Source of the DNA: Chlorobiota bacterium
Lineage (GTDB): Bacteria; Bacteroidota; Bacteroidia; Bacteroidales; F082
DNA: 37,164 nucleotides
Assembly: GCA_013151215.1 (NCBI GenBank)
Contig: JAADIS010000154.1
Span: 1 to 37,164, forward strand
Direction: 5' to 3'
A program made the translations under genes and the position numbers. Shown here one piece after another: positions 21,233-31,454 of the stretch; position 1 is the stretch's first letter, and every line of letters begins with the position of its first letter. The notes under the pieces are model-generated. The model was not told the DNA's origin, did not search any database, and saw only the letters and a list, made by a program, of their open reading frames with translations.

Positions 21233-21661
21233 TTAGTTCCTGTTTCCCATTCCTCTCCTGTGTTTGTTGCCCCATCTGTCCTTATGCCTCCTGAAGCCGG
21301 GGAATTCGTTACCGAAGTTTCGTTTTATCCTTTCCATTTTGTCCAATTGGCGCGGTGAGAGATAAGGACGCAGTTCCGATTCGAACTCGCCGAATATCTG
21401 CCTTTGCTTTTCAAGGTGTTCTTCAAATTGCTCGCGGCGTATTTCATTGTACTTATCAAATATCGGCCTTATATCCTCCAATTGTTCCGGGCTGGGCTTC
21501 AAAGCGCGCATAAAACGGTAGTCCATCCCCTGACGGGCAAAATCCTGTCGCATATTTTCAATGCGCATCCTGGTCAATCTGCCGCTGACCAAAAACCCTA
21601 TTACCACTCCCAAAAGGAGTGTCCCTACAATTACCAATGTGTTTTTCAGACGTAAATTCAT
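21233..21661 (-). CDS. Membrane-anchored Spy/CpxP-like periplasmic protein
   Basis: From the ATG at 21661 the product is 142 residues. It has one N-terminal membrane helix ('NTLVIVGTLLLGVVIGFLVSG') and then a helical, Arg/Glu/Gln-rich periplasmic part: 'LKPSPEQLEDIRPIFDKYNE' and 'LRPYLSPRQLDKMERIKR'. The L-x-P-x-Q pattern repeated in two helices is that of Spy/CpxP and metal-resistance (CnrX-like) proteins. A histidine- and arginine-rich tail (RRHKDRWGNKHRRGMGNRN) might bind metal or anionic surfaces. An upstream TTG would add three residues but is less likely. It follows the anti-sigma gene by 11 bp and probably acts as a periplasmic sensor or chaperone in the sigma circuit. Confidence 0.72.
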   Translation of the reverse strand: MNLRLKNTLVIVGTLLLGVVIGFLVSGRLTRMRIENMRQDFARQGMDYRFMRALKPSPEQLEDIRPIFDKYNEIRREQFEEHLEKQRQIFGEFESELRPYLSPRQLDKMERIKRNFGNEFPGFRRHKDRWGNKHRRGMGNRN

Positions 21662-21672
21662 GATTCCCAATA

Positions 21673-22050
21673 TTAAAAGTTAAGCATTGAGTAGAATTCC
21701 TCCTCAATGGGATAGGCATGCAGGCCAAATAGCGAATCCAGGCTCAAACTCCCGTCCATCAGGTAAACGCTCCCTATTAAAATCGCAATGGCTGCTGCCG
21801 AGGCAAAGGCTATCCTCTTGAAGCTACCGAAAAGGTCCGACGGGTTTTGAATCCGGCCAAGCAGTTTTCCGGTAAAATCATCACCGAATCTATATTCCAG
21901 GCGCGCTAGACCTTTGCGCAGGGTTTCATAATCTTTCAGCTCATTCCTCAGTCCTTCGGATGCTTTAATTTTATCATCCAAAAATGTTTTTTCCTCTTTT
22001 GAAAGATCGCCTTCAAGAGACTTGAGCATTATTTCCCTAATTTTATCCAT
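21673..22050 (-). CDS. Putative anti-sigma factor (single-pass)
   Basis: The 125-residue protein has a cytoplasmic helical N-terminus ('MLKSLEGDLSKEEKTFLDDK', a pattern common in anti-sigma proteins that count 'L.G.L...E...' near the start) and one membrane helix at about 80-100 (FASAAAIAILIGSVYLM). A short periplasmic tail ends in 'EEEFYSMLNF'. There is no zinc-binding HxxxCxxC motif, so it is not a classical ZAS protein. Its start overlaps the end of the sigma gene by 8 bp. Position and topology support an anti-sigma role; sequence alone does not prove it. Confidence 0.65.
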   Translation of the reverse strand: MDKIREIMLKSLEGDLSKEEKTFLDDKIKASEGLRNELKDYETLRKGLARLEYRFGDDFTGKLLGRIQNPSDLFGSFKRIAFASAAAIAILIGSVYLMDGSLSLDSLFGLHAYPIEEEFYSMLNF

Positions 22051-22636
22051 GACTATATGTTTTATCGAAAGAAAGAATTACATCCCTTAATTTTTGCTGT
22101 GCCCTCGAAAGCCGCGAAAGAACCGTCCCAAGGGGGAGATTTAGGGTTTCCGCAACTTCTTTTGTTGAATAACCTTGTATCAGGCGCAATACCAATACGC
22201 TTTTAAATTTAGCCTCCAGCCGTTCCATGCCCATATCCACGACATCCTTTATTTCCTTATCCGAAAATTCGTCGGAGATACTCGCGCTTTCCCTTATCGT
22301 GTCGTCTATGCTGGACATATATTTCTTTTTGCGGCTCTTCAGCTCATTGAGCGACAAATTGATGGCAATGCGCGTGAGATATGTTTTTAAGTGCGAATCG
22401 CCCCGGAATTTAGAAGCCGAATTATAAAACCTGATAAAAACTTCCAGGCCAACGTCGTCGGCTTCAGGCACATCGCCGAGCATGCCTTTTACGACTGCGG
22501 CAACATCGTCTTTGTACTTGTTGACCAAAACCGCAAAGGCTTTGGCATTTGCCGCGGCACTAAGCTTAACCAATTTCTCGTCGCTGTATGTCGAAAAGTC
22601 TTTTCCCAACGGCTTTTTGAGATATTTGACAGTCAA
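22043..22636 (-). CDS. ECF-type RNA polymerase sigma factor
   Basis: The 197-residue protein has sigma region 2 ('FAVLVNKYKDDVAAVVKGML', 'ADDVGLEVFIRFYNSASKFR', 'LKTYLTRIAINLSLNELKSR') and region 4 ('FKSVLVLRLIQGYSTKEVAE', then 'LNLPLGTVLSRLSRAQQKLR'), joined by a short acidic linker. This is the ECF layout without regions 1.1 and 3. It would direct RNA polymerase to promoters with an AAC-type -35 and a GTC-type -10. It is followed by a putative anti-sigma gene (8-bp overlap) and a Spy-like gene. The only start found is TTG at 22636, just 24 bp after a strong terminator hairpin, so how this operon is transcribed is unclear. Confidence 0.9.
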   Translation of the reverse strand: MTVKYLKKPLGKDFSTYSDEKLVKLSAAANAKAFAVLVNKYKDDVAAVVKGMLGDVPEADDVGLEVFIRFYNSASKFRGDSHLKTYLTRIAINLSLNELKSRKKKYMSSIDDTIRESASISDEFSDKEIKDVVDMGMERLEAKFKSVLVLRLIQGYSTKEVAETLNLPLGTVLSRLSRAQQKLRDVILSFDKTYSHG

Positions 22637-22660
22637 AACCCGGTTTTTATTCCAATTTCA

Positions 22661-22740: not shown

Positions 22741-25700
22741 TCAAAATTTCGGGACCCTGCCCGGCGTATAAGGTGCTTTTAATTTATCAAGCTCGGTTTC
22801 AAGCCCTTTCAAGGAAGCATCAATGGCTTTCAGCTTTTCCAAAACCGGGGGGAACTCCTCCATCAGGATTTTATAATTCTGAAGTTGGGTCTTGGTAGGC
22901 TCCGATGTTGATTGCCAGGCGACGAAAGCAATATTGTCGAACCTGTTGCTCAAGGGCATTTGTTCGGGCGGCACTTCTTCCCAGCTGGCCACGGCAGGTG
23001 TCCCGTCGAACAAAAACTTTATATCCTCAAGTTGATGGCTCAGTCCGTTGGCGGTGTTCTTCAGTTCAAGGCCTGCCTGTGGCGATTGCTGCAATGCTTG
23101 CTGTATAAAGGCGGTTTTCTTTTGCAGGGACTGAAAATACTCCTGTGCCCCATTGGTTACCCGCCATAAGTCGATGACTTTTTTGTAAAAACTATCAAGC
23201 GCAGCCCTGTCCTTGGCCGGAAGTGTGGTATTGTCCAGCACAACGGCATTGAATTCAACAGGGCCAGCAAGATGTTTTTCTTCCCCATTATGGAAAACCG
23301 ACATTTCAACACTATATTTCCCCGGCAGGGCCCTGAAGCTGCTCCCCGCGTTTTTTGTAGGGTTGAACTTATCGTCCTTTAAATGTACAGGGCCGGGGTT
23401 CTGATACCTCAAGTCCCAATAGGCCCTGTTAATCCCTTTCGATGCTTTTTTATAAAAACTCCTAACTATATCGCCCGTTGAATTTTTAATCTCGAATTTA
23501 AGCCATGGTCCCCTTTCCGCTTTTTCCTTATCAAGGATTTCCTTAGTGGGCTGCGGAATGGGGTCGCCCTTTTTAAATAACTCCTTTTCCTTTTTCAGCC
23601 TTTCCGACTTCAAGCTCTTAGGGACATCTTTGATAAAATAAGTGAACACGGCCCCGAACTTTGGGTTTTTGGCCTGGTAAATCCCCGATCCTGTTCCATA
23701 TCTGCTTCCCTCCTGAACATACATCAAGGCATCTTTGACAGGAAACAATATTGCATCCTCGCTTTTCAATTTATCCGCGTTTAGCTCACGGAGTGATGAA
23801 TAGTCGTCGAGGACATAAAAACCCCTGCCGAAAGTGGCAATTACCAAGTCTTTTTCCCTTTGCTGGACGGCAATGTCCCTTACAGCAACATCAGGGAGGC
23901 CGTTTGCGAACTTTGTCCATTCCTTTCCGCCGTCAAGGCTGAAATAAAACGAGAATTCCGTTCCTGCAAACAGCAGGTCCGGATTGACGGGGTCTTGCAT
24001 AATAGTATGTACGCTGCCATTCTCCGGCAGGTTGGAACTAATGGAGCTCCATGTCCTGCCCTTGTCGGCACTCTTTAGTACGTAAGGTTTAAAATCGTCG
24101 CTTTTTGTATTGTTAAAACTTGCGAAAACAAGGTTCTCATCGAAGGTAGAAGGGTAAATATCAGACACATAGGTGTATTCGGGAATGCCCGGGAAGGAAG
24201 AGACCTTTGCCCATGTTTTTCCGCTATCCCCTGTTATTTGAATAAGTCCGTCGTCGGTGCCGACATAGATCAGGCCTTCTTTAAGCTTGGATTCGGCAAG
24301 CGACACTATCGTCCCCCATTGCGATGTTGAAATATCTTTGGCAACGGCGTCAGATGGCCAATATTTTCCCATCACCTTAAACTGGTTCCTGTCCTCGTTT
24401 CGTGTCAGGTCCCCGCTTATTACTTCCCAGGAATTTCCCCTGTCGTCGCTTTTGAAGAGCTTGTTGGCTCCCATATAGAGCCTTGTATCTTTAAACGGGC
24501 TCAGGATAAAAGGAGCATCCCAGTTCCAGCGATATGTTAATTCACCTTTTCGCGGCGTTGGTTTAACTTTTATTTTCTCACCTGATCTTCTGTCGTAGCG
24601 ATAGATGTTCCCATACTGATACGCCGAATAAACGATATCGGGATTTGATTCCTCACTAGCTTGCCAAAAGCCGTCGCCACCAAGGGTTACCACCCATTCG
24701 TCGCTGCCAACGCCACCTGATTTAAGATTTCTGGAAGGTCCGCCCAGACTATTGTTGTCCTGTGTTCCCCCGTAAACCCAATAAAAGGGTTCGGTATTGT
24801 CAAGGCCTACCCGATAAAATTGGGTAACAGGCAGATTGTTTTTATATAGATAGGTTTTGCCCCCGTCCCATGATTCATATACTCCTCCGTCGCCACCTAT
24901 AAAAAAGTGGGTGGTATGTTCCGGGTCTATCCACATTGCATGGTCGTCAACATGGCGTTTGTTGTTCCCGACTTTTTTCCAGGTTTTTCCGGCATCAGTT
25001 GTATATTGCGATATGGTTTCAAGGCTATAAACTTTGTTCTCGTCTTTGGGGTCGCAAACCAGCTCGCTATAATATTGGCCGCTACTATTGTGCGAGCTCA
25101 TTTTCTCGAATGATCCCCCCCTGTTTGTAGAACGGTAAAATCCACCCTTGTCGTTAGATGCCTCAAACATAACATAAACGATATCAGGGTTTGCCGGCGA
25201 AACGACTATCTCCATTCCGCCCTTGTCAACTCCGGGGATGCCGTTTTTCAGCTTATCCCATGTTTTTCCGCCATCTCTCGACTTATAAAATGCCGATTCG
25301 GGGCCGCCGCCTATTTTTGTAAACTGCCGGCGACGCCTTTGTTCGGCCCCGGCATAAATAACATCGGGGTTCCCCGGCTCGAAACTGATATTTGCAACGC
25401 CAGTGTTCTCGCTGATATCCAGCACTTTATCCCATGTCTTCCCGCCATCGGAGGTTTTATACAACCCTCTGTCGCCCCCTGGGCCCCAGGCCGATCCCTC
25501 CGCAGCAACGAAAACCACATCAGAATTCCTGGGATCTATAATTATCTCCCCAATTTGGCGGGATTCCTTCAAGCCCATGTTTTCCCACGAAGCCCCTCCG
25601 TCAACCGATTTGTAAACCCCGTTGCCATAGCCCAGGGCGCGCTGATGGTTGTTTTCTCCTGTTCCGGCCCAAATTACCTCACTATTAGTTGGGTCCATGG

Positions 25701-26022
25701 CAAGGCATCCAATGGAATAGACTCCATAATTATCAAAAACAGGTTTGAATGTTGTGCCGTTATTTGTGGTTTTCCATATATGCCCGGACGCAGCTGCAAC
25801 ATAATACACACTGTGGTTATCGGGATTAACGGCAAAGTCGGCTATCCTGCCCGAGGTGAAGGCCGGCCCTATGCTCCTCCATTTGAGCCCGCTGAAAAGC
25901 GAGGATTCCACCTTGGGTTCTTTTTTGCCATTGTCCTTTTTCTTTTTTGCGTAAGAGGCATTTATCGCCAAAAGAAGGATTAAGCTGAGCAATGTTACTT
26001 TAATGTATTGAGTTTTGATCAT
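22741..26022 (-). CDS. Secreted sortilin/BNR-like multi-Asp-box protein (paralog 2)
   Basis: This 1093-residue protein has a signal peptide (MIKTQYIKVTLLSLILLLAI...YA), a lysine-rich stretch, and about eleven Asp-box repeats such as SVDGGASWENM, TSDGGKTWDKV, SDDRGNSWEVI and SLDGGKEWTKF. After 'LVIATFGRGFYVLDDYSSL' come a beta domain ('LPGKYSVEMSVFHNGEEKHL') and a helical tail. The propeller repeats resemble those of sialidases and VPS10/sortilin receptors. Function is unknown, and I see no catalytic site or T9SS tail. The number, order and spacing of the repeats equal those of the protein at 3358-6426, so the two arose by duplication. A strong terminator follows, then the ECF sigma operon. 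Confidence 0.85.
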   Translation of the reverse strand: MIKTQYIKVTLLSLILLLAINASYAKKKKDNGKKEPKVESSLFSGLKWRSIGPAFTSGRIADFAVNPDNHSVYYVAAASGHIWKTTNNGTTFKPVFDNYGVYSIGCLAMDPTNSEVIWAGTGENNHQRALGYGNGVYKSVDGGASWENMGLKESRQIGEIIIDPRNSDVVFVAAEGSAWGPGGDRGLYKTSDGGKTWDKVLDISENTGVANISFEPGNPDVIYAGAEQRRRRQFTKIGGGPESAFYKSRDGGKTWDKLKNGIPGVDKGGMEIVVSPANPDIVYVMFEASNDKGGFYRSTNRGGSFEKMSSHNSSGQYYSELVCDPKDENKVYSLETISQYTTDAGKTWKKVGNNKRHVDDHAMWIDPEHTTHFFIGGDGGVYESWDGGKTYLYKNNLPVTQFYRVGLDNTEPFYWVYGGTQDNNSLGGPSRNLKSGGVGSDEWVVTLGGDGFWQASEESNPDIVYSAYQYGNIYRYDRRSGEKIKVKPTPRKGELTYRWNWDAPFILSPFKDTRLYMGANKLFKSDDRGNSWEVISGDLTRNEDRNQFKVMGKYWPSDAVAKDISTSQWGTIVSLAESKLKEGLIYVGTDDGLIQITGDSGKTWAKVSSFPGIPEYTYVSDIYPSTFDENLVFASFNNTKSDDFKPYVLKSADKGRTWSSISSNLPENGSVHTIMQDPVNPDLLFAGTEFSFYFSLDGGKEWTKFANGLPDVAVRDIAVQQREKDLVIATFGRGFYVLDDYSSLRELNADKLKSEDAILFPVKDALMYVQEGSRYGTGSGIYQAKNPKFGAVFTYFIKDVPKSLKSERLKKEKELFKKGDPIPQPTKEILDKEKAERGPWLKFEIKNSTGDIVRSFYKKASKGINRAYWDLRYQNPGPVHLKDDKFNPTKNAGSSFRALPGKYSVEMSVFHNGEEKHLAGPVEFNAVVLDNTTLPAKDRAALDSFYKKVIDLWRVTNGAQEYFQSLQKKTAFIQQALQQSPQAGLELKNTANGLSHQLEDIKFLFDGTPAVASWEEVPPEQMPLSNRFDNIAFVAWQSTSEPTKTQLQNYKILMEEFPPVLEKLKAIDASLKGLETELDKLKAPYTPGRVPKF

Positions 26023-26963: not shown

Positions 26964-26993
26964 ATAAAAATAACGTTTATTTACTTTTCAAGT

Positions 26994-27021
26994 GCAACCA
27001 ATAATAGCATCCTATGTCTTA
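26994..27021 (+). promoter_or_regulatory. ECF-sigma-like promoter before T9SS cargo gene 1
   Basis: GCAACC (26994-26999) and GTCTTA (27016-27021) are separated by exactly 16 bases. The same pair with the same spacing precedes the tandem paralog at 29304-29331. AAC-containing -35 and GTC-containing -10 elements with about 16-bp spacing are typical of ECF sigma promoters. The start codon is 78 bp downstream. No TAnnTTTG promoter is visible for this gene. Confidence 0.6.
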
Positions 27022-27099
27022 ATATAACAATTGCTGTCCAACTATTTTTAGTTGAATTGATAGTGAACATTATTAATAACCATTAAATAATTTTTTAGC

Positions 27100-29088
27100 A
27101 TGAAAAAAATATTACTTTTTGCTTTGGCCTTGGGTATGGGGTTTAGCACCATAGCCCAAAAAGCCTACAAATTTAAGATTGACACGAGAGAGCAGAAAAG
27201 AATCGAGGCTCCTGCCAACGGCATTGAACCTGTAAGTTCGGCTGCCGTAACCAAATCAGAGGTAAAATCGAGGATTATCACTCCTTCCGACAGGGATGCA
27301 CAGGTTGTAAACATAGTTCCCATAGGAACTGCGGCCAACGCTTATGGCTGGGGATTTGCGGGCGGACAAGAGTCGTTGATACCTGTTAGGCCCGATCTAA
27401 ACACAATTGCGGTAATACACCGCATGGGCGGGGACGAGGACCCGGGCGGATACTCAGGTGACCTGGGGTATGATATTTCAACCGATGGTGGCCTGACCTG
27501 GAAAACTCAAACCGAATTCTGGATTGCGACAGAAAACGATGGTGGCGATTATTATAAAGATGCTGCAAGATACCCGAACGCAGGCCTGTTCAAACCTGAG
27601 GGCGGCGATACCTATCTTACTTTTTTTGCCCCCATCTTATGGGGCTCCAACGGTGGTTGGGGAGGATATGGCTTTGGCGTTGCCAATACGGTCGATACCT
27701 CAAAACACACTAAGAACATGCTTGTATATCCTGACCAGACAGATATGATGCTTGCCATTCCCGGAGGCTACTTCCTTACTAGTCAAGGACTTTCTATTGC
27801 CGTTGACGATGATCAGGATATTGACGCTACTTCGTACAATGGTAATTTAATTATCACTAAAGGATATTGGAACGCCGACACTCAGGATTTCGACTATGCT
27901 TTAGAAAGCCTTGATGCACCTATGGATATCTCGGACGGCCCGGCCGATATCAAAGTTGCTTTTTCCCCCGACGGACAAACAGGATATATTTCTACCTTGG
28001 GCAATGACGGGGAAGCCACTCAGCAAAGCGGTTACAGCAACTATTATCCGATTTATTGGAAGACTACAGATGCCGGTCAAAGCTGGGAAGGCCCATTCTT
28101 CATCCAGCTTGACGGATCCAACGGTATCGAGGGCATCGTTTATGACCACCTTACCGACCAGTTGATCGCAGATCTTTTTGAAGCCCCTGTCCCTGCCCGC
28201 GAAGATATTTCTTATACTACTTCTTTTGATCATGATATTGTTGTTGACGCAAACGGGAATCTGCATATTGCCGTAATAATAGGGCCAACAGGCACCGACC
28301 CACAGTCTATCGTTTCAGCAAAAGGTTATATAGCAGCTGTTGATTTATTTACTACTGATGGCGGCACTTCCTGGTATGTTGAGGAAATGGGGCGCCCTGC
28401 TACCTTCCGCGGCACGTTCGGCGACATCTCGGAAGACAATAGAATTAGGATCACATCAAACGAATCTGCTGATAAAATATTTATTTCATGGCTGGATACC
28501 GATGTTGAAGATGCTGTTGACAACGACAAGCCCAATTTGTGGTGCCGCGGTTTCGAGCCGGCCACTTATCTGAAAACCAAAGACGGCTCAGGAGTTGACG
28601 GCCCTACGAACGTAACATTGTTCTCGGCAGGAATGTGGCAGGCTTACATGGGACAAGCCTCAAAAGTTTGTTTTACAAGTGGCGACACTTATACTATTCC
28701 TTTTGTTTACGAAGACATGGACCCCACCGACCCTGTTGCTGCCGTCAGGTTCCAGTATATTACGGATTTTTCTTTCTCCGATGCTGATTTCACCATTCAG
28801 GGCGTTGACGAATCCATGAGCGAAAGCAATATAGGCAGCGTCTCGCAAAACTACCCCAATCCCTTCGGCAAGCAAACTTATGTCAACGTCAGCTTGACTG
28901 AAGGTGCTGACTTGAGCCTTGAGGTCTTTACGCTTACCGGACAGAGGGTAGCAACAAGGAATTATGGCTATATGACCAATGGCAGCCATACCTTGACCAT
29001 CGATGGCGCCAACCTTGTACCTGGAGTGTATTTTTACACGGTCATCTCAGGATATGACAAAGTTACACGAAAAATGATTGTTGAATAA
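27100..29088 (+). CDS. Secreted beta-propeller-like protein with type A T9SS tail (tandem copy 1)
   Basis: The 662-residue protein has a signal peptide (MKKILLFALALGMGFSTIA-Q) and a short linker. A large beta-rich domain follows, with Asp-box-like repeats ('DISTDGGLTWKTQ', 'TTDAGQSWEGPFF', 'FTTDGGTSWYVEE'). A sorting tail of about 80 residues begins near 'GSVSQNYPNPFGKQTYV' and continues 'LSLEVFTLTGQRVATRNYG', 'GSHTLTIDGANLVPGVYFY' and 'KVTRKMIVE'. This is the classical type A T9SS signal, so the protein is carried across the outer membrane and probably attached to the cell surface. No function for the body can be given; 'HRMGGDEDPGGYSGDLGYD' is a striking conserved segment. The next gene is a close paralog with nearly the same length. 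A long hairpin follows the stop. Confidence 0.85.
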   Translation: MKKILLFALALGMGFSTIAQKAYKFKIDTREQKRIEAPANGIEPVSSAAVTKSEVKSRIITPSDRDAQVVNIVPIGTAANAYGWGFAGGQESLIPVRPDLNTIAVIHRMGGDEDPGGYSGDLGYDISTDGGLTWKTQTEFWIATENDGGDYYKDAARYPNAGLFKPEGGDTYLTFFAPILWGSNGGWGGYGFGVANTVDTSKHTKNMLVYPDQTDMMLAIPGGYFLTSQGLSIAVDDDQDIDATSYNGNLIITKGYWNADTQDFDYALESLDAPMDISDGPADIKVAFSPDGQTGYISTLGNDGEATQQSGYSNYYPIYWKTTDAGQSWEGPFFIQLDGSNGIEGIVYDHLTDQLIADLFEAPVPAREDISYTTSFDHDIVVDANGNLHIAVIIGPTGTDPQSIVSAKGYIAAVDLFTTDGGTSWYVEEMGRPATFRGTFGDISEDNRIRITSNESADKIFISWLDTDVEDAVDNDKPNLWCRGFEPATYLKTKDGSGVDGPTNVTLFSAGMWQAYMGQASKVCFTSGDTYTIPFVYEDMDPTDPVAAVRFQYITDFSFSDADFTIQGVDESMSESNIGSVSQNYPNPFGKQTYVNVSLTEGADLSLEVFTLTGQRVATRNYGYMTNGSHTLTIDGANLVPGVYFYTVISGYDKVTRKMIVE

Positions 29089-29101
29089 TGCTTTTTTCAA
29101 T

Positions 29102-29139
29102 TTAGTTTGCCCCAACACTTTGTGCTTGGGGCAAACTAA
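29102..29139 (+). terminator. Long hairpin after T9SS cargo gene 1
   Basis: TTAGTTTGCCCCAA (29102-29115) and TTGGGGCAAACTAA (29126-29139) form a perfect 14-bp stem, extended inside by CAC/GTG. There is no good T-run after it, so it may be a terminator or a 3' stabilising structure. Confidence 0.55.
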
Positions 29140-29303
29140 TTGTAAATCTACTGTTTATATCGATATATAAGCCTTTAACATAAAATCTGGCAAGGCCCTT
29201 AAAACTAAACCAATCAATCACATGCTTACTACCTAATATCTTACTTGCCGCGATTATTTATAATCAAGCACGTTATTTAACATTTTTCTTAACAAAGCTG
29301 CTT

Positions 29304-29331
29304 GCAACCATATTATTGCGTTGATGTCTTA
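29304..29331 (+). promoter_or_regulatory. ECF-sigma-like promoter before T9SS cargo gene 2
   Basis: GCAACC (29304-29309), 16 bases, then GTCTTA (29326-29331). The flanks also agree with the copy at 26994: a T before and an A after the first element, AT before the second, and TAT one base after it. It lies 134 bp before the ATG at 29466. Confidence 0.6.
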
Positions 29332-29383: not shown

Positions 29384-29412
29384 TTGTAAGTTTCGGAATA
29401 ATAGTATATTTG
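29384..29412 (+). promoter_or_regulatory. Bacteroidota-type promoter before T9SS cargo gene 2
   Basis: TTG at 29384-29386 and TATATTTG at 29405-29412 are 18 bases apart and fit the -33/-7 consensus. This gene therefore seems to have a primary promoter in addition to the ECF-like one. Confidence 0.55.
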
Positions 29413-29465
29413 TTGCTTCAAAAAAAATAGAAAGTAAACCTTTGTTTAATTAAATGTTATTTAAA

Positions 29466-31454
29466 ATGAAAAAAATCTTACTAATTGTTTTGGCTTTGGG
29501 CATGGGCGCGAGCACCATGGCACAACAAGCCTACAAGTTCAAAATCGACACCAAAGAGCAAAAACGGATTGATGCCCCTAAAATTGGCATTGAGCCAATT
29601 AAAACTTTGGCGATTACTAGATCCGATGTCCAATCAGCAATGATCGCACCTACCGATCGTGATGTAAACATTGTAACTATTATCCCTACGGGAACCGCAG
29701 CAAACGCATACGGCTGGGGTTATGGCGGAGGACAGCAATCCCTTACTCCAGTCAGGAACGACCTTAACACAATTGCCATTATTCACCGCATGGGCGGCGA
29801 CCAGGATCCCGGTGGCTATTCCGGGGATATGGGTTATGATATTTCAACCGATGGAGGAATGACCTGGATAACCCAAACCGAATTTTGGATTGCTGTTGAA
29901 AATGACGGCGGAACATATTTTAAAGATGCTGCACGTTATCCGAATGCCGGATTATATAAGCCTGAAGGTGGCGACCTCCGCCTGGTGTACGATATGCCCA
30001 TACTCTGGGGTTCCAATGGAGGCTGGGGCGGTTATGGCCTTGGTGTTGTCAATACAGTTGACACTTCGGATCATACCAGGAATATGTTCACATATCCCGA
30101 AAATTCAGATTTCTGGATGGGTGTTCCTTCCGGTTATGCTTTGTCCGGCCAGGGATTATCACTTGGCGTGGATTTAGATTATGATATCGACGGCACAACC
30201 TATAACGACCAGCTAATCTTGACAAAAGGTTATTGGGACGATGGCGCACAGGATTTCGTTTTCTCACAGGAAGGCTTGGACGCAACATTTGATGTTTCCG
30301 TAACTTCAGCTGATGAAAAAGTTGCGTTTTCTGCTGACGGGCAAATCGGATATATCTGTACTCTTGCCAACGACGGTCAAGCCACACAACAAAGTGGATA
30401 TAGCAACTGGTATCCTGTTTATTGGAAATCGACCGATGCAGGTGAGTCATGGGACGGCCCATTCTTTATCCAGCTTGACGGCCCTGACGGCATTGGCGGC
30501 ATTGTTTACCACCATCTCACTGACCAGTTAATTGCGGATTTATTCGAGCCGCCGGTACCAACGCGCGAGGAGATTTCCTATACAACTGCCTTCGACCACG
30601 ATATTGCCGTTGACAATAACGGAAACCTGCACATTGGCGTTATTATCGGGCCAACAGGCTCCGACCCTCAGTCAATTATTACGGCAAATGGTTATCTTGC
30701 AGCAGTTGACCTGTTTACCGATGACGGTGGCACTACCTGGTATGTCGAGGAAATGGGCCGTCCGGCAACTTTCCGCGGTACTTTTGGCGATTTAACCGAA
30801 GATAACAGAATCAGGATCACTTCAACTCCCTCAGGAGATAAGATGTTCATTTCTTGGTTGGACACCGACATTGAAGATGCAACGGACAACGACAAACCAA
30901 ACTTATGGTGTCGCGGATTCGACTTCTCTTCATATATGAAAACACAAGATGCCTCAGGAAATGACGCACCGACTAATGTAACATTGTTCTCGGCAGGTAT
31001 GTGGCAGGCCTATTTTGGTCAGGCATCAAAATACTGCTTTGTAAATGGCGATACTTATACTATTCCTTTTGTTTATGAAGGCATGGATCCTACTGATCCA
31101 GTTCAACCGGTTACTTTCCAGTATATTCAGGACTTTGCTTTCTCAGATGCTGATTTTACCGTACAAAGTGTTAATGACCTTGCCGAGACAAATAATATAG
31201 GAAGCGTTTCGCAAAACTTCCCTAATCCTTTCAACAAAGAATCTTATGTTACTGTTAACCTCACCAAAGGCACAAACCTTAGCCTTGAGGTTTATACTTT
31301 AACAGGACAAAGGGTGGTTGCCAAGGATTATGGTTATACTACCAATGGCACGCATACATTGACCATTAATGCCGCCAACCTTACTTCGGGAGTTTATTTT
31401 TATACTGTAACCGCAGGTGAAAATAAAGTTACCAAGAAAATGATCGTTGAATAA
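29466..31454 (+). CDS. Secreted beta-propeller-like protein with type A T9SS tail (tandem copy 2)
   Basis: From ATG at 29466 (MKKILLIVLALGMGASTMA-Q) the product has 662 residues, the same as copy 1. An ATG four codons upstream is less likely because it spoils the match to copy 1. The bodies align without large gaps: 'ANAYGWGYGGGQQSLTPV', 'HRMGGDQDPGGYSGDMGYD', 'WGSNGGWGGYGLGVVNTVD' and 'DNDKPNLWCRGF' are shared nearly word for word. The Asp-box-like repeats ('DISTDGGMTW', 'STDAGESWDGPFF', 'FTDDGGTTWYVEE') and the sorting tail ('GSVSQNFPNPFNKESYV' to 'KVTKKMIVE') are kept. It is therefore a surface-exported T9SS cargo made by tandem duplication. Function is unknown. A perfect terminator follows. 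Confidence 0.85.
   Translation: MKKILLIVLALGMGASTMAQQAYKFKIDTKEQKRIDAPKIGIEPIKTLAITRSDVQSAMIAPTDRDVNIVTIIPTGTAANAYGWGYGGGQQSLTPVRNDLNTIAIIHRMGGDQDPGGYSGDMGYDISTDGGMTWITQTEFWIAVENDGGTYFKDAARYPNAGLYKPEGGDLRLVYDMPILWGSNGGWGGYGLGVVNTVDTSDHTRNMFTYPENSDFWMGVPSGYALSGQGLSLGVDLDYDIDGTTYNDQLILTKGYWDDGAQDFVFSQEGLDATFDVSVTSADEKVAFSADGQIGYICTLANDGQATQQSGYSNWYPVYWKSTDAGESWDGPFFIQLDGPDGIGGIVYHHLTDQLIADLFEPPVPTREEISYTTAFDHDIAVDNNGNLHIGVIIGPTGSDPQSIITANGYLAAVDLFTDDGGTTWYVEEMGRPATFRGTFGDLTEDNRIRITSTPSGDKMFISWLDTDIEDATDNDKPNLWCRGFDFSSYMKTQDASGNDAPTNVTLFSAGMWQAYFGQASKYCFVNGDTYTIPFVYEGMDPTDPVQPVTFQYIQDFAFSDADFTVQSVNDLAETNNIGSVSQNFPNPFNKESYVTVNLTKGTNLSLEVYTLTGQRVVAKDYGYTTNGTHTLTINAANLTSGVYFYTVTAGENKVTKKMIVE

Follow-up and report, generated by a model that had tools for sequence, protein, structure and literature searches.

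Two tandem genes for predicted cargo of the type IX secretion system (T9SS) lie on contig 2 of a metagenome-assembled genome (MAG) of a Bacteroidales bacterium of the family F082 (G000, the own genome; 3.72 Mb in 154 contigs), and the whole stretch analysed, 37,164 nucleotides, is referred to here as the window. Each of these genes is preceded by a short element, A or B, which is very probably a real promoter of the type used by extracytoplasmic function (ECF) sigma factors. The comparison of sequences establishes the motif, how far it is conserved, where it lies and which class of promoter each group of sigma genes carries in front of itself. Moreover, it seems reasonably probable that A and B are ECF promoters that place two tandem T9SS surface proteins in a small envelope and export regulon, whose sigma factor would most likely be of the C71-type described below. 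The elements and genes concerned are the following.

26993-27021, plus strand: putative ECF-type promoter element A, with TGCAACC at 26993-26999, a 15-nt spacer and TGTCT at 27015-27019, followed by TA
27100-29088, plus strand: cargo gene A, 662 aa, with a T9SS type A C-terminal domain and a signal peptide judged by eye
29303-29331, plus strand: putative ECF-type promoter element B, with TGCAACC at 29303-29309, a 15-nt spacer and TGTCT at 29325-29329, followed by TA
29454-31454, plus strand: cargo gene B, listed with 666 aa, probable start at ATG 29466, with a T9SS type A C-terminal domain

Both genes are T9SS type A cargo as judged from their predicted products, which combine a Por_Secre_tail domain (Pfam, 36.7 bits for A and 47.9 bits for B, cut-off 27; the tail of A was also found by the NCBIfam scan) with signal peptides recognized by eye, and the two encoded proteins are 73% identical. 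A preliminary description of the window had reported the pattern GCAACC-N16-GTCTTA in front of both, and it is indeed present on the plus strand as GCAACCAATAATAGCATCCTATGTCTTA at 26994-27021 and GCAACCATATTATTGCGTTGATGTCTTA at 29304-29331. From dinucleotide shuffles of the window, 0.01 exact matches are expected against the two observed, and two matches occurred in none of 100 shuffles. When the spacer is allowed to vary (GCAACC-N14-18-GTCTTA), the 3.72 Mb genome has no exact match besides A and B, and none to the reversed pattern. A relic of duplication was rejected as the source of the likeness between A and B, since the flanks are no more alike than shuffles (their alignments score below the shuffle mean, in line with the earlier remark that the remaining upstream DNA differs) and the 15-nt spacers are identical at 2 of 15 positions. 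In the close relative G024 element A is identical, which carries little footprint information because the whole surrounding stretch is near-identical; element B begins an unbroken conserved block, and the DNA upstream of it has diverged. An AAC-type -35 box, a GTC-type -10 box and a 15-nt spacer, as is typical of ECF-type promoters, were found in A, in B and in 12 of the 14 cargo-type sites, and the motif occurs upstream of conserved genes more often than expected by chance.

The conserved part of the element emerges from the upstream regions of 41 full-length cargo homologs with approximately 33% identity or more, drawn from 61 genomes; homologs of lower identity or incomplete length, such as those of G153 and G168, were excluded. 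KGCAAC-N15..18-TGTC occurs in 12 of the 41 regions (two of these, from G024, nearly duplicate A and B), compared with 0.065 per set of mononucleotide shuffles, and it is absent from the reversed and reverse-complemented versions of the same regions. An additional site, in G047, stands before a cargo gene at the end of a contig and is outside the 41. The common core is TGCAACC-N15-TGTCT, and the bases that follow it vary (TTA, TAT, TAC, TGC), so the GTCTTA of the preliminary description is, by this comparison, partly a coincidence between the two copies in the window. In G037, four tandem cargo homologs stand behind an operon orthologous to the ECF operon of the window (L193 6817-15753, G037:C123); three of the four have the motif, one of them with a 17-nt spacer, and the second from the 3' end lacks it.

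The core recurs beyond these homologs. TGCAACCWW-N13-TGTCT has 23 matches in 173 genomes of the family, compared with 10 for the reversed pattern, and the refined form KGCAACCW-N14-TGTCW has 36 compared with 8 in 15 genomes picked for having sites or the sigma genes. Some of the sites counted had already been used in shaping the pattern, so this enrichment is not fully independent; the reversed control and the targets other than cargo are the fairer evidence. Up to 33 of the 36 sites fall outside any open reading frame (ORF) of at least 100 aa (background 12%), one of them, L311, being too close to a contig end for certainty. By our own sorting, the 36 comprise 10 sites in front of cargo homologs, 9 C71-type ECF promoters and 17 further sites, 3 of the last group being inside ORFs; among the remaining 14, an ORF starts within 220 nt downstream in 12. 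Four of these 12 products have a Por_Secre_tail over the cut-off (an M14 peptidase, a BNR protein and two BACON/PKD proteins), and the tail of a gingipain-type C25 peptidase reaches 26.6 bits, below the cut-off of 27. The others comprise two proteins of one 248-aa family, one protein each of the GIN-domain, AhpC/TSA and lipoprotein-like kinds, a PKD protein cut by the end of its stretch, and a short frame at the edge of a contig. The scan of 173 genomes with TGCAACCWW-N13-TGTCT adds a tailed C10 peptidase (over the cut-off) and a PspC protein. The C25 peptidase (L325 199-3957, G045:C43) has a propeptide and stands behind GGCAACC-N15-TGTCT. The PspC-domain protein (L338 3406-3957, minus strand) and a GIN-domain DUF2807 protein (L337 159-863) stand behind TGCAACC-N15-TGTCT, a hint of an envelope-stress component in the putative regulon.

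Within the own genome, the refined motif has three matches, before A, before B and before the C71-type sigma gene, and the reversed motif has one; TGCAAC-N15..18-TGTCT has four, one of them inside an ORF, compared with two reversed. On contig 110, TGCAACT-N15-TGTCT lies 40 nt upstream of a gene for a 248-aa secreted protein, whose counterpart in G010 (62% identical) has a TGCAACC site, also 40 nt upstream, and whose homolog in G023 (41% identical) has GGCAACC-N15-TGTCT; thus, T and G look interchangeable at the first base of the -35 box. Of the 23 matches of TGCAACCWW-N13-TGTCT in the family, those in the genus g14 are inside ORFs in G178, G135 and G138, and outside ORFs, before an 80-aa frame, in G120.

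A conserved promoter upstream of an ECF operon is commonly that of the sigma factor itself, and could serve to assign each group of sigma genes to a class of binding site. The own genome has 21 Sigma70_r2 matches, and upstream DNA was inspected at 15 of these loci and at 40 ECF loci from relatives. In a tree of 70 proteins, the promoter classes named C53-, C71- and C119-type are on separate clades (ultrafast bootstrap/SH-aLRT support of 99/98, 91/98 and 98/95). Among the best 25 NCBIfam models per protein, the only sigma match over the cut-off is the general ECF superfamily. The candidates in the own genome are these.

G000:C71:44251-44817: C71-type ECF sigma gene, unlinked to the window, own promoter G(G/A)CAACY-N15-TGTC
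G000:C53:2129-2674: C53-type ECF sigma gene, own promoter TGCAACC-N16-TGTCA
L160 1435-1998 (G000:C119): C119-type ECF sigma gene, own promoter xxCAAC-N16-CGTCT, found in 7 of 7 tree members

The C71-type promoter form was found at all 17 loci scoring at least 182 bits, and TGCAACC-N16-TGTCA at 22 of 23 C53-type orthologs, the 23rd having TGGAACC. C71-type promoters and cargo sites have in common AAC, the 15-nt spacer and TGTC, extended to TGTCT in several genera; the leading base of the -35 box is T at cargo sites and G in C71-type promoters, and T and G alternate within one target family. Promoter matrices were built from 13 C71-type, 22 C53-type and 7 C119-type sites and from 26 of the 29 promoters of the type found upstream of the ECF operon in the window. 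At 14 of 14 cargo-type sites the C71-type matrix leads by 12 to 31 bits over that of the window ECF, and over the four matrices the best is C71-type at 10 sites, C119-type at 2 and C53-type at 2. On the C71-type matrix each of the two elements reaches 19 bits, compared with -6 bits for A and -8 bits for B on that of the window ECF. Given its own promoter class, and since the refined motif has no sites in the own genome other than those before A, before B and before its gene, the C71-type factor is a better candidate than the neighbouring one; we infer that it is the most likely sigma factor for A and B, with the C53-type as a less likely runner-up. The C119-type ECF was rejected as the user of A and B because of its poorer -10 box and spacing, despite its top score at 2 of the 14 sites.

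The neighbouring sigma gene had been proposed in the preliminary description as the possible controller of both cargo genes. It does lie where it was reported, 4.4 kb from element A, in an operon that is divergent from the cargo array.

22043-22636, minus strand: window ECF sigma gene, Pfam Sigma70_r2/r4, likely true start at TTG near 22609
22625-22653, minus strand: predicted own promoter of this operon, GGAATAA-N15-TGTCAAA, of a different -35 class and the only such match in the window
21673-22050, minus strand: probable anti-sigma factor, 125 aa, with one transmembrane (TM) helix by hydropathy; gene order kept in orthologs
21233-21670, minus strand: third gene of the operon, with one N-terminal TM helix; Spy/CpxP-like by eye

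The listed TTG start overlaps the -10 box of the operon's own promoter, and the true start is therefore probably some 9 codons later. No Pfam or NCBIfam family was found for the probable anti-sigma factor, and the third gene has no match to these families above the cut-off. Immediately upstream of the operon, at 22741-26022 on the minus strand, is a gene for a 1093-aa Sortilin/BNR-repeat protein, and a similar gene stands there in several relatives. Counting proteins that score at least 104 bits (the next score being 81), the window ECF has orthologs in 49 of 172 genomes. Among 30 ortholog loci retrieved, 29 were counted, the row L204 being without upstream sequence; at the start of the operon, all 29 have GGAAT-N17-TGTC (GGAATAA-N15-TGTC with few changes), and none has GCAAC. 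The GCAACC element is likewise absent upstream of the operon in the window, as already noted in the preliminary description, and the GGAAT form is found in none of the 41 upstream regions of cargo homologs. The GGAATAA promoter would be the window ECF's own and would define its binding class. What is supported of the earlier reading is the very probable ECF-type promotion of T9SS cargo, with a motif that recurs before tailed genes in several genera; the neighbouring ECF as its driver is not supported.

The distribution of the motif among genomes bears on the same question. The motif genomes are all 19 from the scan of 173, and the ECF ortholog searches covered 172; G178, G135, G138 and G120 were omitted from a first Fisher test and kept in the final ones. 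The motif is present in 10 of 17 genomes with a C71-type gene compared with 9 of 155 without it (p = 2.6e-7), and in 13 of 49 genomes with the window ECF compared with 6 of 123 without it (p = 1.5e-4), phylogeny being ignored in these tests. Within the genomes that have the window ECF, it accompanies the C71-type gene (9 of 14 compared with 4 of 35, p = 4e-4); within those lacking a C71-type gene, no clear association with the window ECF is seen (4 of 35 compared with 5 of 120, p = 0.12).

Several observations weigh against the assignment to the C71-type factor. The cut-off of 182 bits was chosen after the scores had been seen, and the next two C71-like loci, at 171-172 bits, are without a G(G/A)CAACY promoter. 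In the genus of the window, the C71-type promoter has TGTCA, as against TGTCT at cargo sites, and nine motif genomes have no C71-type gene at the cut-off; in three of these (G013, G032 and G019) neither a C71- nor a C53-type gene was found. The C119-type matrix is best at G037_1 and G023_1, and the C53-type matrix at G037_4 (by 0.4 bits) and G017_2. It is indeed conceivable, although rather unlikely, that the C53-type ECF is the main user of A and B or shares them with the C71-type. Its own promoters have the same -35 box as the cargo sites, including the leading T, and it is present in G006, G063, G017 and G023 (MAGs, 77-95% complete), which have sites and no C71-type gene at the cut-off. However, the spacer is 16 nt in every C53-type promoter found, compared with 15 nt in 12 of the 14 cargo-type sites, the -10 box is TGTCA and not TGTCT, and no C53-type ortholog was found in G010 despite its motif sites (40 genomes were searched for this type).

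A role of the window ECF, which could act on A and B through a relaxed -35 box or indirectly, by a cascade or by read-through, appears improbable. Its operon adjoins cargo genes in 4 of the 5 genomes that represent the genus. In G037 and G047 it stands directly upstream of them in the same orientation, so that the proximity may be more than an accident, and there read-through could play a part. Moreover, its promoter shares the 15-nt spacing and the TGTC -10 box with the cargo sites, and motif genomes are enriched for it if the C71-type gene is ignored. Nevertheless, its promoters are of the GGAATAA class throughout, this class is missing from the cargo regions, both elements have negative scores on its matrix, and G036 and G063 have motif sites and no window-ECF ortholog at the cut-off; in the window itself, where the cargo genes point away from the operon at a distance of 4.4 kb, read-through is inapplicable. 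That the matches at A and B reflect chance, or a relic of duplication without promoter function, is very improbable. This would agree with the fate of the hexamers as first written, for which a genome-wide search had been suggested as a check and no enrichment was seen: with up to two mismatches, the genome has 193 matches compared with 234 for the reversed control, and exact GCAACC-N15-17-GTCTTA has 63 matches in 149 family genomes and more when reversed. These hexamers were dropped as an enrichment test because their TTA tail is not conserved, and 4 of the 63 matches are themselves C71-type promoters (G025, G036, G043 and G048). It would also agree with the lack of the motif at 29 of 41 cargo homologs, including a third copy in the own genome on C119, and with a primary-sigma box before gene B. 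Against it stand the shuffles of the window and of the cargo regions, the unlike flanks of A and B, and the conservation of the core across genera, before unrelated genes and mostly outside ORFs.

The box before gene B concerns the division of labour between promoters at the two cargo genes.

29405-29412, plus strand: TATATTTG, a match to TAnnTTTG, upstream of gene B

TAnnTTTG is the -7 box of the primary sigma factor of Bacteroidota (PMC9723704). Gene B thus probably has a second, housekeeping promoter besides the ECF-type one, although this point is weak, since the frequency of TAnnTTTG across the window is at chance level. No such box was found on the plus strand between element A and gene A, which seems to depend chiefly on its ECF promoter. 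Similar boxes were recognized by eye upstream of many cargo homologs. The third full-length paralog of the own genome (G000:C119:22860-24854, minus strand; upstream region L090) has a TATATTTG box and is without the motif.

In most loci with a following gene in view, C71- and C53-type sigma genes are followed by a gene for a protein of approximately 430-450 aa, with a short N-terminal part, one TM segment near residues 44-64, a long polar linker and a C-terminal part like an outer-membrane barrel, a layout drawn from hydropathy and by eye in four proteins; three of the four shown end in DF, and no Pfam match was found in the two that were scanned. Genes resembling sensor histidine kinases by eye adjoin C53-type and C71-type operons (L170 2-1246 and L176 1916-3193). 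This partner would be an inhibitor, or anti-sigma factor, of the C71- and C53-type sigma factors. It might hold the C71-type sigma until released by a change at the cell surface, which would be sensed at the barrel end of the partner and would free the sigma in the cytoplasm; the freed sigma could then transcribe the operon that encodes it together with the cargo genes, and the cargo proteins would be exported by the T9SS to the cell surface. Tentatively, and with less confidence than in the promoter assignment, we propose that a trans-envelope pair of the Dma type, formed by an ECF factor and an anti-sigma whose sensor end would be in the outer membrane, directly controls T9SS cargo (gingipain-like C25, C10 and M14 peptidases and BNR/PKD proteins), so that the state of the surface would set the supply for export, paralogous ECF factors being kept apart by spacers of 15 versus 16 nt and by the class of the -35 box.

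The closest known systems share parts of this arrangement. SigP (PGN_0274) of Porphyromonas gingivalis is an ECF sigma factor tied to T9SS and reported to be auto-regulated; it controls the T9SS machinery with PorXY, rSigP bound upstream of porT, porV, porP and ruvA, and the possible anti-sigma genes named in that work belong to other ECF factors (PMC4800418, PMC7712824). The parallel with SigP that had been drawn for the window remains apt as a theme, namely an ECF sigma linked to T9SS; however, the targets of SigP are machinery and those described here are cargo, the candidate sigma has a Dma-like partner, and the motif proposed for SigP, C(T)AAA(G/C/T)A(T)A(C)T(A/G)A (PMC4800418), is unlike GCAACC/TGTC. 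The SM6 promoters of Flavobacterium psychrophilum, whose sigma factor is unsettled, have a CGT -10 box and count T9SS genes and an operon of ECF and anti-sigma genes among their targets (PMC9723704). They are alike in the ECF-type -10 box and in both kinds of target, as compared from the text description of the SM6 motif and not base by base; the T9SS targets in the selection presented there are components (GldN, PorU and a PG0189 homolog), whereas those described here are cargo.

In Bacteroides thetaiotaomicron, Das/Dma pairs consist of an ECF21 sigma and a dual membrane-spanning anti-sigma encoded by adjacent genes, and Dma has an N-terminal sigma-binding part, a TM helix, a long disordered tether and a C-terminal barrel (PMC13088901). 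The partners of C71- and C53-type factors, known here from their sequences, appear similar in layout and are likewise encoded beside the sigma gene. The outputs reported for Das/Dma, vesiculation and polysaccharide loci, differ from the cargo targets described here, and the terms "type ix" and "motif" do not occur in the main text of that source (PMC13088901). A literature search of limited scope found no published link between Dma pairs and T9SS cargo, and, among the papers listed, none that, judged by its title, deals plainly with a GCAACC-type sigma motif in Bacteroidetes. ECF control of the T9SS machinery has already been described for SigP and SM6, and what is added here is the proposed ECF control of cargo, probably by a factor with a Dma-like partner.

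The case shows that the nearest sigma gene can mislead as a guess for the regulator. Several ECF clades, each with its own conserved promoter, could allow sigma factors and targets to be matched from sequence in uncultured Bacteroidota. Moreover, control of cargo by a defined ECF promoter would, if true, show how bacteria choose the proteins that they export to their surface.

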